41,011 bases of DNA, taken from assembly GCA_016198165.1 (NCBI GenBank), contig JACQJF010000052.1, positions 1 to 41,011 on the forward strand, given 5' to 3'. The notes beneath the pieces were generated by a model, which had not been told where the DNA came from, ran no database searches, and saw nothing but the letters and a program-made list of their open reading frames with translations. Shown here piece by piece: positions 8,787-21,728 of the stretch. The DNA comes from Candidatus Iainarchaeum sp. (lineage in GTDB: Archaea > Iainarchaeota > Iainarchaeia > Iainarchaeales > GW2011-AR10). Positions within the stretch are counted from its first letter, which is position 1, and every line of letters starts with the position of its first letter. The position numbers and the translations under genes were made by a program.

Positions 8787-8884
8787 GGACGCAAGTTTGG
8801 CTTTAAGCCAAACAGCGGTGTGAACGGACGCAAGGGCTGTTGAGCGAAGCGAAACGCCCGCGGTGTGAACGGACGCATACCGTT
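8787..8884. repeat. short direct-repeat and hairpin cluster downstream of a pilin gene
   Basis: The 18-mer GCGGTGTGAACGGACGCA occurs at 8815-8832 and 8860-8877, and its last seven bases (GGACGCA) occur again at 8787-8793, giving spacings of 39 and 45 nt. Between the units are hairpins: GTTTGGCTTTAAGCCAAAC (8795-8813, nine paired bases on each side). TGAACGG and CCGTTCA flank ACGCATA next to the pilin stop. It lies in the 3' region of the minus-strand pilin gene 8884-9234. Only two full repeats and unequal spacers argue against CRISPR. A terminator or mRNA-stability structure, or a mobile repeat remnant, is possible. Confidence 0.6.
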
Positions 8885-12092: not shown

Positions 12093-12341
12093 TCATTCGC
12101 CGACTTTTTCGGTTGTCTGCTCTATGCCTGTCCTGACTTCCCCTTGCTGGGTGTTGAAGATGTTTTTAAGCGTGATGCCGACAATCATTGCAAGGACAAC
12201 CGCGCCACCGATTAGCAAGAGGGTTTCGACGCTTGCCTGGGCTCTTTTTCCAAGCGGGCCCTTGCGCGAGCCCGCGGCGCGTACATGCCCTGTTTTCAAC
12301 AGGGCGGTAGTATTGTTTTCCATGCCGTCACCAAATTTCAT
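12093..12341 (-). CDS. class III signal pilin-like protein with long basic leader
   Basis: 82 residues. The class III signal (GKRAQASVETLLLIGGAVV, A before Q and Glu at +5) comes only after a leader of about 30 residues (ENNTTALLKTGHVRAAGSRK). The helix GGAVVLAMIVGITLKNIF is followed by a short polar tail. The ATG at 12341 overlaps the TadC stop as ATGA; a second ATG at 12323 has GGTGA six bases upstream. The leader codons coincide with a copy of the two-hairpin element (12260-12312), so the long basic leader seems to come from an inserted repeat. Confidence 0.8.
   Translation of the reverse strand: MKFGDGMENNTTALLKTGHVRAAGSRKGPLGKRAQASVETLLLIGGAVVLAMIVGITLKNIFNTQQGEVRTGIEQTTEKVGE
12260..12312 (-). 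repeat. two-hairpin element, copy A (inside pilin gene 12093-12341)
   Basis: Read on the minus strand: ACTACC, then stem 1 GCCCTGTT-GAA-AACAGGGC (12305-12287), linker ATGTACGCGCCGC, then stem 2 GGGCTC/GGGCCC around a loop containing CGCA. The linker and CGCA loop are shared with the copies at 16262, 16383 and 21673, while stem 1 bases differ and still pair. It falls within the 5' coding part of a pilin gene. Confidence 0.65.
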
Positions 12342-14425: not shown

Positions 14426-16132
14426 TCAGCCTGTTGGTTTTTCCTTGTCAATAAAATCGAGGCACATTTGTGTCACCTTGTCCATTGCGTGCGTTTCGTT
14501 GTCTATAAGTTCCTTGAGGAATTTTTCCCTTTTCTTTATTTCTTTTTCCACGCTGTCAACCGTTTTTCCGGAAAATATCGCAACCGCCTTGAGGTACTCT
14601 GAAGAGTTTTTTGTCCTTGAAATCGAGTCGCTTGCAGGGTCATACTGGAATATGGCCACTGTCTTGGTTTTCCCTTCAAGGCTTCCGGCGACTTCGGCTA
14701 TTTCCGTTACCCTGCGTATTGTCCCTTTTTTCTTGTCATGCAGCCTGTGTTCAACGAGGATGAAATCAAGCCCGCTGAGCATGACTTCTGGCACGTTCAT
14801 GGGCGGTGAAACCACTCTCACCACGGTTTCTCTTGGGGAGTTGGCGTGTATGGTGCCAAGGCAACCGGAATGACCCGTGTTAATTGCCGTGAAAAACGTG
14901 AAGGCCTCTGCGTGCCGTATTTCCCCGACGATTATCCTATCGGGCCTCATCCTCAGAGAGTTTTTTGTGAGAATGTCAAGTGTTATTTCCCCCTTGCCTT
15001 CAAGCCCGGGTGGTTTTCCCTCAAGCCTTATCCAGTGTTTTAACGGCAGGTTGAGTTCAGCGGTGTCTTCAATGCTTATTATCCTCTCATAGGGCGGGAT
15101 GAATGCAGCCAGGGCATTGAGGCTTGTGGTTTTTCCACTCCCCGTGCCCCCTGAAATCAGTATGTTTGCGGGTTTTACATTGAGTCCTTCCACGCAGAGC
15201 CACAGGAATGCCCCGACTTCCGTGTTTATAGTGTTTGAGGTTATGAGGTCAATTATGCTGTAGGGGTCTTTGCGGAATTTCCTGATTGTGAGTGTCGAGC
15301 CGTCAACTGACGCGGGTTCAACGGTCGCGTTCACCCGGCTCCCGTCAGCCAGCCGCGCGTCAAGCATTGGGGAGCTTATGTCCACGCGCCTTCCCACGAG
15401 CCTGGCAATCCTATTGACGAGGTCTATTATTTCCTGGTCCGAGTAGAACTCGATGTTTGTGGTCATCATTTCGTATTGCCTGTGGAAAATGTAAACAGGT
15501 TTTTTCGGGCCGATTACCATTATTTCCTCTATTTTGTCGTCGTTTACAAGCGGGTCTATCAGGCCGTATCCGACCATTTCGCGGACCACGGATTCCGCGT
15601 AAAATTCCCACCTGTGCTGGGGTATTCCAAGTTGTGGAGAGTTTTGTAGTATTTCGATTACTTTTTGGTAGTAGACGTTCCGCCTTTCCTGCTGGTCGCG
15701 TATCTTGAAAGGCGCAATTGTAATGAGGCGCGTGGCGGCTTCCTTTATAGTGTTGATTATCGCTTTTTCCGCGGCGGTGGGCCTTGGGACAGGGGTCGTG
15801 TATTCGGGGATGAATTCGCCCTGTACCGTGTATATTTTTGCGTTTCCATAGGACGTGACCAGTTTTTTCTTCCGGTTGTCCTTTTCCTGCTCCCGTGCCT
15901 CTTCAACCTGGCCCTGGGTTAGTGTTTCTGCGGCACCTGTCTTTTGTGCAGGTTTTGGCTCTTCAGCCTTTTTGAAGATTTTTTGCTCTTTTTCGCCTTT
16001 TTTTTCCTTGGAAAAAATTTCAGGGATTTTTTCTTCTTCCGGTTCCACTGGTTTGGGTTCGCCTGCTTCCTGTTCTGCAAGCCTTTTTTTCTTTTTTATC
16101 TTTTCAATCATTTCATCCATGTAATTAGGCAT
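14426..16132 (-). CDS. TadA/VirB11-type secretion ATPase of the pilus
   Basis: 568 residues from the ATG at 16132 (another in-frame ATG is at 16120). A charged, low-complexity N-terminus (about 1-95) precedes the T2SSE domain. Visible motifs are Walker A GGTGSGKT at 328-335, an Asp box/Walker B region (RPDRIIVGEIRHAEAF) and the His box region (GHSGCLGTIHANSPRE). Family role: a cytoplasmic hexameric ATPase that powers pilin extraction and polymerisation. It starts the operon tadA-tadB-tadC-pilin. An 18-bp palindrome (16137-16154) covers the predicted transcription start, and an ATG at 16156 inside that palindrome is rejected as start. Confidence 0.92.
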   Translation of the reverse strand: MPNYMDEMIEKIKKKKRLAEQEAGEPKPVEPEEEKIPEIFSKEKKGEKEQKIFKKAEEPKPAQKTGAAETLTQGQVEEAREQEKDNRKKKLVTSYGNAKIYTVQGEFIPEYTTPVPRPTAAEKAIINTIKEAATRLITIAPFKIRDQQERRNVYYQKVIEILQNSPQLGIPQHRWEFYAESVVREMVGYGLIDPLVNDDKIEEIMVIGPKKPVYIFHRQYEMMTTNIEFYSDQEIIDLVNRIARLVGRRVDISSPMLDARLADGSRVNATVEPASVDGSTLTIRKFRKDPYSIIDLITSNTINTEVGAFLWLCVEGLNVKPANILISGGTGSGKTTSLNALAAFIPPYERIISIEDTAELNLPLKHWIRLEGKPPGLEGKGEITLDILTKNSLRMRPDRIIVGEIRHAEAFTFFTAINTGHSGCLGTIHANSPRETVVRVVSPPMNVPEVMLSGLDFILVEHRLHDKKKGTIRRVTEIAEVAGSLEGKTKTVAIFQYDPASDSISRTKNSSEYLKAVAIFSGKTVDSVEKEIKKREKFLKELIDNETHAMDKVTQMCLDFIDKEKPTG

Positions 16133-16136
16133 AAAC

Positions 16137-16175
16137 GCGTCTAAGATTAGACGCAATTATGATATTTAATAATAG
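16137..16175 (-). promoter_or_regulatory. tadA promoter with an 18-bp palindrome at the start site
   Basis: On the minus strand ATTATTAAATATCA (about 16160-16173) is a TATA-like box. Some 25 nt further lies GCGTCTAATCTTAGACGC (16137-16154), an inverted repeat with 8-bp arms and a 2-bp centre. The tadA ATG (16132) follows after four bases. A palindrome between TATA and start codon is where an archaeal repressor would act; it could also form a 5' hairpin in the mRNA. Confidence 0.5.
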
Positions 16176-16312
16176 CGGGGCCCGTGCAGGGCTCGTACCC
16201 TGCCGGGCACAAGCGACGCGTGCGGCCTAGCGGCCCTACTTGCCTTGCGGCAAAATCGCCTTTGCGTGGGCCCGCGGCGCGTATGTGTCTCCTCTTCGGG
16301 GAGACTGTAATA
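16176..16312 (-). ncRNA. candidate structured RNA upstream of tadA
   Basis: On the minus strand this begins with two-hairpin element copy B and continues through GCGGGCCC (about 16265-16275) to GGGCCCCGC (about 16174-16183). These two ends can pair with one bulge, enclosing several short hairpins, including GCC-GCAA-GGC with a GNRA tetraloop and GCAGGG-TACGAG-CCCTGC. About 70% GC in an otherwise moderate-GC genome. No known family is recognised. It precedes tadA, so it could be a leader or an independent small RNA. Confidence 0.4.
16262..16312 (-). repeat. two-hairpin element, copy B
   Basis: Minus strand: ATTACA, stem 1 GTCTCC/GGAGAC (16305-16287), linker ACATACGCGCCGC, then GGGCCCACGCA. 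The 17 bases of linker and flank match copy A except at two positions. Stem 1 has quite different bases that still pair; stem 2 is weak here (GCC/GGC). It is the most diverged copy. Confidence 0.6.
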
Positions 16313-16382
16313 CATTTCTATTGAACCGCCGCCAAGTAGATGAGTAAATTTTTTTTATAGTAATCCAAAATTATATACTCTA

Positions 16383-16438
16383 TTACCGCCCCATTGAAAA
16401 TGGGGCACATATGCGGCGCGTGTGCCCCGCAGGGTATA
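16383..16438 (+). repeat. two-hairpin element, copy C
   Basis: Plus strand: ATTACC, stem 1 GCCCCATT-GAA-AATGGGGC (16388-16406), linker ACATATGCGGCGCG, stem 2 TGTGCCC-CGCA-GGGTATA (16421-16438, with two G-T pairs). Stem 1 length and loop equal those of copy A with different bases, and the linker and CGCA loop equal those of copy D. It lies just beyond the thrS stop, antisense to thrS. A TATA-like TTATATA is about 10 nt upstream. Confidence 0.65.
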
Positions 16439-16457
16439 AACTCCAGCAAGGGTTTTT

Positions 16458-18353
16458 TTATTGGCCGTTGAATTGTTCCAGGAAATCCTGCAACTTGACG
16501 TTAAAACTGACCTGGGCGAATCTGTCGCGCACTGCAATCGTCCCATTTTTCTCCTCTTTTTCGCCAAGGGTAAGGATGAATGGCGTTTTTTGGAGTTGTG
16601 CGTTGCGGACCTTGTATGCAACGGTTTCGTTTGACAGGTCAAGTTCCGTCCTGATGCCTGCTTTGGAGAGCTGTGCGTGGATTTTTCTTGCATAATCCGC
16701 GTGCTTTTCGCTCACGGGAAAAAGAACTGCCTGTACGGGGGCAAGCCAAGTGGGGAAGCTTCCGCCGAAGTGCTCCACGAGGATTCCAATGAATCTTTCA
16801 AGCGAGCCATAAATCGCCCTGTGCACGATGACCGGGGTTTCTTTTTTGTCCTCGGAATTGATGAAGTAAATCCCGAATTTTTCGGGCATTGAAAAATCCA
16901 CCTGGATTGTGCCGACCTGCCAGTTCCTCCTCAAAGAATCCGTTATGTGGAAGTCTATTTTGGGGCCGTAGAATGCGCCGTCGCCGCTGTTTACCTTGTA
17001 ATTGATTTTTTTTTCCTTGAGCGCGTCTTCAAGGGCGCGTGTCGCGTTCTCCCAGATTTCCTTTGACCCCATTGCCTTTTCCGGGCGCGTGGACAACTCC
17101 ACTCTGTACTCGAACCCGAATTTGTTGTAGATTGTCGTGGTGAGGTCAATCACGTCGACCAGTTCTTTGCGCAGCTGCCCGTGGCTTGCGAAAATGTGTG
17201 CGTCATCCTGTGTGAATTTCCTGACCCTGAACAGGCCGTTGAGGACTCCTGACAGTTCGTGGCGGTGGACGGTTCCAAACTCCGCAATCCTTAGTGGCAA
17301 TTCCCGGTATGACCTTCTTTTTTCCCCGAAGATGAGTATGTGCCCGGGGCAGTTCATCGGCTTGACCGCAAAGTCTTCCTCGTCTATTTCGACAAAGTAC
17401 ATGTTTTCCTTGTAGTGTTCAAAGTGCCCTGATTGTTCCCACAGTTTTTTCTTCATTATCATGGGCGTGATTACTTCAAGGTAGTTTCTTTTTTCTTGTT
17501 CCCTGCGCAAAAACTCCATTAGCTTGTTGTAAATCACCGTTCCCTTCGGGTGGAAAAATACCGTGCCTGGTGCTTCCTCGTGCATTGAGAACAGGTCAAG
17601 TTCTTTTCCGAGTTTGAGGTGAGAGTTTTCAGCGGCCTTTTTCTGCATCTCCAAATACTCGTCGAGCATTTTTTTTTCAGGGAACGCTATGCCGTAGATT
17701 CTCTGAAGCGACTTGTTTTTCTGGTCCCCCCGCCAGTAGGCCCCGGATGTCTTGAGTATTTTCACTGCCTTTATCTTCCCGGTTTCGCTCACGTGGCCGC
17801 CCTTGCACAGGTCGGCGAATTTTCCAGTGAAGTAAACAGTCAGTGTTTTTCCCGCTCCTGTGAATTCTTCTATTAGCTCTTTTTTGTACGGGTTTTTTTC
17901 AAACAGCCTGATTGCGTCTTTTTTTTCGAGTTTTTTCCCGTGCACTTTTTCCTTGCGCGAGATTATTTCAATCATTTTTTTCTCTATTTTTTCAAGATCC
18001 TCTTTCGTGAACGGGTGTGAAACGTCAAAGTCGAAGTAGAAACCTTCGTCTATTGGTGGCCCGATTGCGGGCAATGCGTCTGGAAATACTTCCTGCACTG
18101 CTTCGTTGAGCACGTGTGCGGCCGTGTGCCAGAGGGCTTTTTTTCCCTCAGCGTCATTCCACGTTAGGATGCGGAAATTTCCGGATTCTTCAAGCGGTGC
18201 GTCAAGCTCGATTGTCCGTTCGCCCAGTTTTACCGCCAGTGCGTCGCGTGCGAGCCGCTCGCCGATGCTTGCTGCAACTTCAAGCCCCGTCGCCCCTTTG
18301 CGGAACTCTTTTTTCTTCCCGTCGGGAAAAACGAGGGTTATCTTATCAAACAT
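16458..18353 (-). CDS. thrS: threonyl-tRNA synthetase, bacterial-type domain order
   Basis: 631 residues from the ATG at 18353. A TGS domain (1-63, MFDKITLVFPDGKKKEF) is followed by the SAD editing domain with HTAAH (His76, His80) and CKGGH near 180, then the class II catalytic core (FRVRKFTQDDAHIF; zinc-site MNCPGH; motif 3 GSLERFIGILVEHFGG) and the anticodon domain (TWLAPVQAVLFPVSEKH to the end). Many archaea instead have an N-terminal DTD-like editing domain, so this looks like the bacterial/eukaryotic architecture, probably acquired laterally. It charges tRNA-Thr and clears mischarged Ser. An upstream TTG-type extension to 18383 is not supported. Confidence 0.96.
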   Translation of the reverse strand: MFDKITLVFPDGKKKEFRKGATGLEVAASIGERLARDALAVKLGERTIELDAPLEESGNFRILTWNDAEGKKALWHTAAHVLNEAVQEVFPDALPAIGPPIDEGFYFDFDVSHPFTKEDLEKIEKKMIEIISRKEKVHGKKLEKKDAIRLFEKNPYKKELIEEFTGAGKTLTVYFTGKFADLCKGGHVSETGKIKAVKILKTSGAYWRGDQKNKSLQRIYGIAFPEKKMLDEYLEMQKKAAENSHLKLGKELDLFSMHEEAPGTVFFHPKGTVIYNKLMEFLRREQEKRNYLEVITPMIMKKKLWEQSGHFEHYKENMYFVEIDEEDFAVKPMNCPGHILIFGEKRRSYRELPLRIAEFGTVHRHELSGVLNGLFRVRKFTQDDAHIFASHGQLRKELVDVIDLTTTIYNKFGFEYRVELSTRPEKAMGSKEIWENATRALEDALKEKKINYKVNSGDGAFYGPKIDFHITDSLRRNWQVGTIQVDFSMPEKFGIYFINSEDKKETPVIVHRAIYGSLERFIGILVEHFGGSFPTWLAPVQAVLFPVSEKHADYARKIHAQLSKAGIRTELDLSNETVAYKVRNAQLQKTPFILTLGEKEEKNGTIAVRDRFAQVSFNVKLQDFLEQFNGQ

Positions 18354-18412
18354 GGGAAATCCACAAAGATTATAACAAACCAAAAAAATAATTCGGCAAA
18401 TTTTTCATGGTT

Positions 18413-21529: not shown

Positions 21530-21672
21530 CAAAAAAACCTTTTTTTTCTTTGAAATCTTTGAAATATTTTCTTCCCGTGAAGGTGTTTTAAAAGCATAAG
21601 GGGGCCTCTTTCTTGTAGCTTTTAATTATTAATGTTACAAAAAGTAGTGTGTTTTCATGTTAACCCAAAATA

Positions 21673-21728
21673 TTACCGTCCCTTCGCAGGAAGGGGCACA
21701 TATGCGGCGTAAACCTGCGCACAGGTTT
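21673..21728 (+). repeat. two-hairpin element, copy D, directly before the gene at 21734
   Basis: Plus strand: ATTACC, stem 1 GTCCCTTC-GCAG-GAAGGGGC (21678-21697, one G-T pair), linker ACATATGCGGCGT, stem 2 AAACCTG-CGCA-CAGGTTT (21711-21728, seven perfect pairs). Stem 2 ends five bases before the ATG, and its 3' strand contains CAGG, the only Shine-Dalgarno-like sequence for that gene. A folded RNA would hide it, so this copy may control translation. Confidence 0.65.

Follow-up and report, generated by a model that had tools for sequence, protein, structure and literature searches.

A GC-rich intergenic island in an Iainarchaeum genome as a probable copy of a small mobile element with a covarying, pseudoknotted fold

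The GC-rich island between tadA and thrS in the 41,011-nt stretch of Candidatus Iainarchaeum DNA analysed here (the window) is probably, at odds that we put at about 80%, a copy of a non-autonomous mobile element with linked hairpins recognised as DNA by a trans-acting enzyme. The island is one of about 90 copies. The element is a repeat of roughly 70 bases and apparently new, as no description of it came up in the open-access literature on archaeal interspersed repeats, MITEs, tRNA introns and DPANN.

In the proposed mechanism, the enzyme supplied in trans would recognise the fold as extruded or single-stranded DNA hairpins, and this recognition would keep the fold under constraint. The element inserts mostly into intergenic DNA and in either orientation, with 16–44 bp of the target duplicated, and selection would retain the gene-sparing positions.

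The island and its copies

The gap between the tadA-like ATPase gene and thrS spans 16157-16457. There, an earlier note made from the sequence alone had placed an island of about 70% GC and proposed a non-coding RNA read from the minus strand. The island is real, as positions 16178-16298 have a GC content of 69.4% versus 46.7% for the window, and just 0.02% of the 121-nt windows reach this level. All three hairpins named in that note, GCC-GCAA-GGC, GGCC-GCTA-GGCC and GCAGGG-TACGAG-CCCTGC, are found and formed in the minus-strand MFE structure. The outer helix GCGGGCCC/GGGCCCCGC drawn around them can pair but is absent from that structure.

Both strands beat shuffled sequences when folded as RNA (z = -2.9 for minus and -2.2 for plus), and so do the two strands folded as DNA (z = -4.0 and -4.5). 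The consensus fold, however, makes plus the conserved strand of the block. Rfam yields no match at the gathering score and only noise at a relaxed E-value, so a known RNA family is rejected. A tRNA gene is likewise rejected, ARAGORN predicting none within the window, and a unique non-coding RNA gene is ruled out by the copy number.

The block is the long form of one copy, B, whose core is matched at 16256-16315 by R2 (see Table 1 for R1, the covariance model built from 19 short copies). Its modules align with those of locus L011 and are found singly or jointly in other copies. The repeated element suspected earlier has a genuine and inverted second copy, A, which starts at the thrS stop codon and has an AT-rich tail at its other end. 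A and B form an inverted pair, tail-to-tail. Copies nest and also pair, which produces the multi-hairpin island.

Copy A is 95–96% identical over 112 nt to the copies at contigs C47 and C30, and copy B is 89% identical over 108 nt to one at C54, with further matches elsewhere in its own genome. In total, R1 finds four good copies in the window.

Table 1. Genes and element copies in the window
Feature	Positions	Strand	Remarks
tadA-like ATPase ORF	14426-16156	minus	ATG likely at 16132
thrS	16458-18383	minus	
Copy B, whole long form (the block)	16179-16323	plus	extra nested hairpin modules 5′ of core
Copy B, conserved core (P1 3′ part, pseudoknot strand, P2, P3)	16258-16315	plus	R1 48.3 bits, E 7.4e-11
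Copy A	16349-16460	minus	core 16378-16434; R1 51.5 bits
Copy A, outer P1 hairpin (AAACCC-TTGCTG-GAGTTT)	16438-16455	minus	partial R1 match and copy alignment
Short-form copy	12256-12315	plus	R1 72.2 bits, E 5.1e-17; antisense to 5′ part of small pilin-like ORF
Short-form copy	21668-21728	minus	R1 63.4 bits, E 9.4e-15
Possible degenerate copy, weak	8792-8838	minus	R1 9.1 bits, E 0.91, not significant

At the DNA level, the minus strand of 16130-16460 was compared with 35 related genomes. The matching places number 27 in its own genome, 21 in another member of the family and 8 in the one congener, with nothing elsewhere. R1 at E <= 1 gives 87 matches in the own genome and 41, 26 and 98 in three relatives of the family. 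These counts are lower bounds, because many full copies in genome G002 have truncated half-copies (CTCCGTTTAC..GTGCCATCTTCGATGGCAC) arrayed in tandem after them (L144-L152). Elsewhere, the P1 region of several copies is interrupted by a further hairpin module (GGCAAAAGAAA..TTTCACTTTGCC-like; L024, L014, L019 and L032).

Across the phylum (87 genomes, E <= 0.001), the element occurs in 21 of the 75 genomes of its own order and in none of the 12 outside it, mostly as one to a few copies in the bearers beyond the family. Phage records, plasmid records and two viral-contig pattern scans gave no match to the element.

The surroundings have features of their own. A perfect palindrome with 8-bp arms, GCGTCTAA-GA-TTAGACGC at 16137-16154, had been noticed by tadA and indeed lies there, with the TATA-like ATTTAATA on one side and the probable tadA start codon (ATG, 16132) on the other, a position like that an operator would take. 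The ThrRS (16461-18356, minus) is of bacterial type, its identity to bacterial and Heimdallarchaeum ThrRS reaching 48%, and this suggests a past gene transfer. Other genes adjoin thrS downstream in G002 and G003, and G001 yielded no full thrS. The source genome has a pilus ATPase and membrane genes, both of the archaeal type, together with aIF5A and anticodon-loop tRNA introns, which mark the organism as archaeal.

Fold and pairing

The 60-nt core consists of hairpin P1, a pseudoknot strand and then P3 atop the short stem P2. The P1 loop pairs with the 4–5-nt strand directly downstream of P1 to make the pseudoknot. This P2–P3 arm has a conserved asymmetric internal loop, P3 being long with a mostly 3-nt loop, and an AT-rich tail of about 5–30 nt follows the core.

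This fold was first inferred from 19 short copies and then scored on 83, where 92.3% of the cells are paired and 20 of the 22 pairs have two-sided changes, in 449 cells. The covariation is 0.646 versus 0.217 in shuffled and 0.09–0.155 in slid controls. The copies are related, so the independent events are fewer than the cells, and the slid control preserves this relatedness. The pseudoknot is swapped wholesale between subfamilies, as TGCG/CGCA, GGAT/ATCC, TGGC/GCCA, AGGT/ACCT, AGCT/AGCT, TTCCG/CGGAA and TTTCG/CGAAA.

A structured non-coding element with its pairing conserved in relatives is therefore strongly supported by the alignments. Loss of that pairing would have spoken against the candidate RNA of the earlier note, and the pairing is kept and strongly covarying. 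What stands of the candidate is the structured non-coding element; a dedicated RNA gene does not, given a multicopy mobile repeat with few G-U pairs.

The 83-copy alignment has G-U in 33 and A-C in 58 of 1826 cells. G-U is as depleted as A-C mismatches and not favoured over them. At the same loci, G-U makes up 52 of 586 tRNA pairs (8.9%) versus 33 of 1686 in the element (2%; p ~2e-12), where the tRNA figure includes only the pairs accepted by ARAGORN and so carries no A-C information.

G-U pairs should be tolerated in an RNA under selection on one strand, so their scarcity indirectly favours pairing that would be constrained at the level of DNA hairpins and not of RNA, by selection or by palindrome-correcting mutation. 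Such mutation could partly account for the G-U deficit. The pseudoknot also covaries, which speaks against mutation as the cause of the whole pattern.

The element might instead be a structured non-coding RNA family, or a set of cis-acting RNA motifs, transcribed from many loci, with the fold selected as RNA. Strong covariation of the helices and the pseudoknot fits this, and the copies in tRNA introns are transcribed in pre-tRNA and all oriented as the tRNA. However, the G-U tolerance expected of an RNA family is missing, the orientation to protein genes is near random, Rfam is silent, and target duplications and empty sites are evidence of insertion. We hold this reading very unlikely and prefer the mobile element with DNA hairpins.

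Insertion and its sites

When the flanks of 121 copies were compared, seven had direct repeats scoring 16–37, whereas 361 mismatched flank pairs scored 13 at most. The repeats are 16–44 bp long, and the P1 end abuts the repeat in six of the seven. For most of the 121 copies, A and B of the window among them, no target duplication is detectable; ATAAAAAAA, which flanks A on both sides, is at the chance level. At L139, L141, L143, L167 and L172, it is a gene's 3′ end that is duplicated. L052 and L154, from two species, share a duplicated site that lies upstream of an aIF5A-like gene.

Orthologous empty sites are few, numbering two. G070 lacks the element and has the gene end once, where its congener G072 is occupied; likewise, G017 lacks it and has a pheS-like gene end once, where its congener G064 is occupied. 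Moreover, L155 has an inverted tail-to-tail pair like A and B between two imperfect direct repeats of 21 bp. Flanking direct repeats and empty orthologs with a single target together show that the element inserts and duplicates 16–44 bp of its target.

As to placement, 113 of the 121 copies are outside the called ORFs and near random in orientation to protein genes, the ORF calling being crude. On the near-random orientation, a cis-regulatory element of single orientation is rejected. The other eight are within called ORFs, some of them doubtful.

In the window, the N-terminal ~22 residues of the pilin-like ORF 12093-12341 (minus; KRAQASVETLLLIGG...) are encoded by the antisense element copy 12256-12315. 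L022 is a similar case with an adjoining paralog that lacks the element. The own-genome locus L159 has a TruD-like ORF near whose N-terminus (~1465-1524) the element lies antisense and in frame, recalling Rickettsia palindromic elements.

A common bidirectional terminator, or another intergenic spacer signal, multiplied through functional selection without mobility, would suit the many copies starting at stop codons. It would also suit copy A, whose antisense strand closes with a GCAA-loop hairpin and then T7. Against it, copies are found also in tRNA introns, in ORFs and upstream of genes, targets are duplicated, and a terminator scan was negative at the block. Such a signal is highly improbable, and insertion of a mobile element is again preferred.

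The tRNA genes are a frequent neighbour, with 31 of the 121 copies inside one or within 120 nt of it. At least eight copies are in tRNA introns at the anticodon loop, all oriented as the tRNA and mostly with P1 beginning a few nt from the 5′ exon end; longer forms of the element occur in the introns of L026 and L032. Other copies start no more than 3 nt away from a tRNA gene: about nine do so at its 3′ end, on the tRNA's own strand, and five at its 5′ end, on the strand opposite and with P1 toward the tRNA. The P1 end is thus shown to border tRNA genes on either side at 0–3 nt and, in introns, to lie close to the 5′ splice point.

Of the 19 element clusters in G002, a complete genome, 12 are within 100 nt of a tRNA versus 1% expected (p ~6e-20, or ~4e-9 assuming that insertion is limited to 12% of the genome), a bias somewhat inflated as four tRNAs of the list came via element loci.

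Like the archaeal BHB tRNA introns, the element occurs after the anticodon, where at least eight copies make up most of an intron, none of these being copies of the window. Unlike them, most copies are outside introns and so cannot rely on splicing. A study of direct repeats at the borders of introns, among them archaeal ones, regards introns generally as insertions, without the present element (PMC11782384).

The mobilising enzyme, related systems and meaning

RVT_1 has no match in G000-G003 and G018, two of which are more than 90% complete, and Cas1 was not found in eight genomes. Y1_Tnp is absent from G001, G002 and G003; of the four family genomes, G000, G001 and G003 are incomplete, at only 60–73%. 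G000 has an IS200-type Y1 transposase fragment of 67 aa, the C-terminal half of the domain (contig C46, L056 1450-1653, minus), with no element copies nearby. At the sampled loci of the own genome, no gene recurs beside the copies that could be a carried transposase or part of a parent transposon.

A retroelement driven by a host reverse transcriptase was rejected on the RVT_1 result in the five genomes, and Cas1-type integration on that in the eight. IS200/RAYT was rejected with the fragment as its sole trace. Long and variable duplications without a reverse transcriptase, Cas1 or an intact Y1 transposase point to a mobilising enzyme yet to be identified.

Variable duplications and a 3′ tail resemble target-primed reverse transcription. 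They keep in consideration a SINE-like route, in which the RNA is copied into nicked targets and the fold serves as a tag for the reverse transcriptase. Eukaryotic SINEs are similarly short, non-coding and structured, with variable duplications and an AT-rich 3′ tail, and the core here is RNA-like. Unlike SINEs, the element is archaeal, no cellular reverse transcriptase is found in the five genomes, and the low G-U speaks against selection at the RNA level. We consider this route unlikely.

REP/BIME elements with RAYT are among the nearest described kinds, and high-copy intergenic hairpins in inverted pairs, such as A/B and L155, are as in BIMEs (PMC2817692). These bacterial repeats are also short DNA hairpins with compensatory changes, and pairing of the DNA type suits their movement by an IS200/IS605-like Y1 transposase. 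Unlike them, the element has a pseudoknotted hairpin pair, duplications of 16–44 bp and sites at tRNA ends and in tRNA introns, and no intact or cognate repeat-flanked Y1 gene was found. Y1 transposases of the IS200/IS605 type are not known to produce long target duplications. This kind of mobility is rather improbable, and a DNA-hairpin element served by another enzyme is preferred.

The MITEs of prokaryotes, to which Rickettsia palindromic elements and the nesting pneumococcal repeats belong, are also among the nearest kinds, and the Rickettsia elements are often within ORFs (PMC10969869). Like the bacterial and archaeal MITEs, the element is small, non-autonomous, multicopy and mostly intergenic and duplicates its target. 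Unlike their short, fixed duplications, its own are long and variable, and no terminal inverted repeats are found on the ends read (L139, L141, L052 and copy A).

It shares with Rickettsia palindromic elements and the pneumococcal BOX, RUP and SPRITE a small structured form, nesting and a few in-frame ORF copies. Unlike them, it is archaeal and mainly intergenic, with only 8 of 121 copies in ORFs, and its fold is unrelated.

More tentatively, and with the odds against it, the element may represent a new archaeal mobile class whose enzyme, of a type still to be characterised, would recognise the pseudoknotted hairpin pair and duplicate 16–44 bp of target, with precise insertion at tRNA processing boundaries. 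If so, archaeal tRNA introns would be arising from it even today.

One family is found both at duplicated intergenic targets and near tRNA splice points, so intron gain can be tested via close genomes. The finding also calls for caution, as structured GC-rich islands in such genomes may be repeats and not RNA genes. It bears on the origin of archaeal tRNA introns and on the spread of small repeats in tiny uncultivated archaea.
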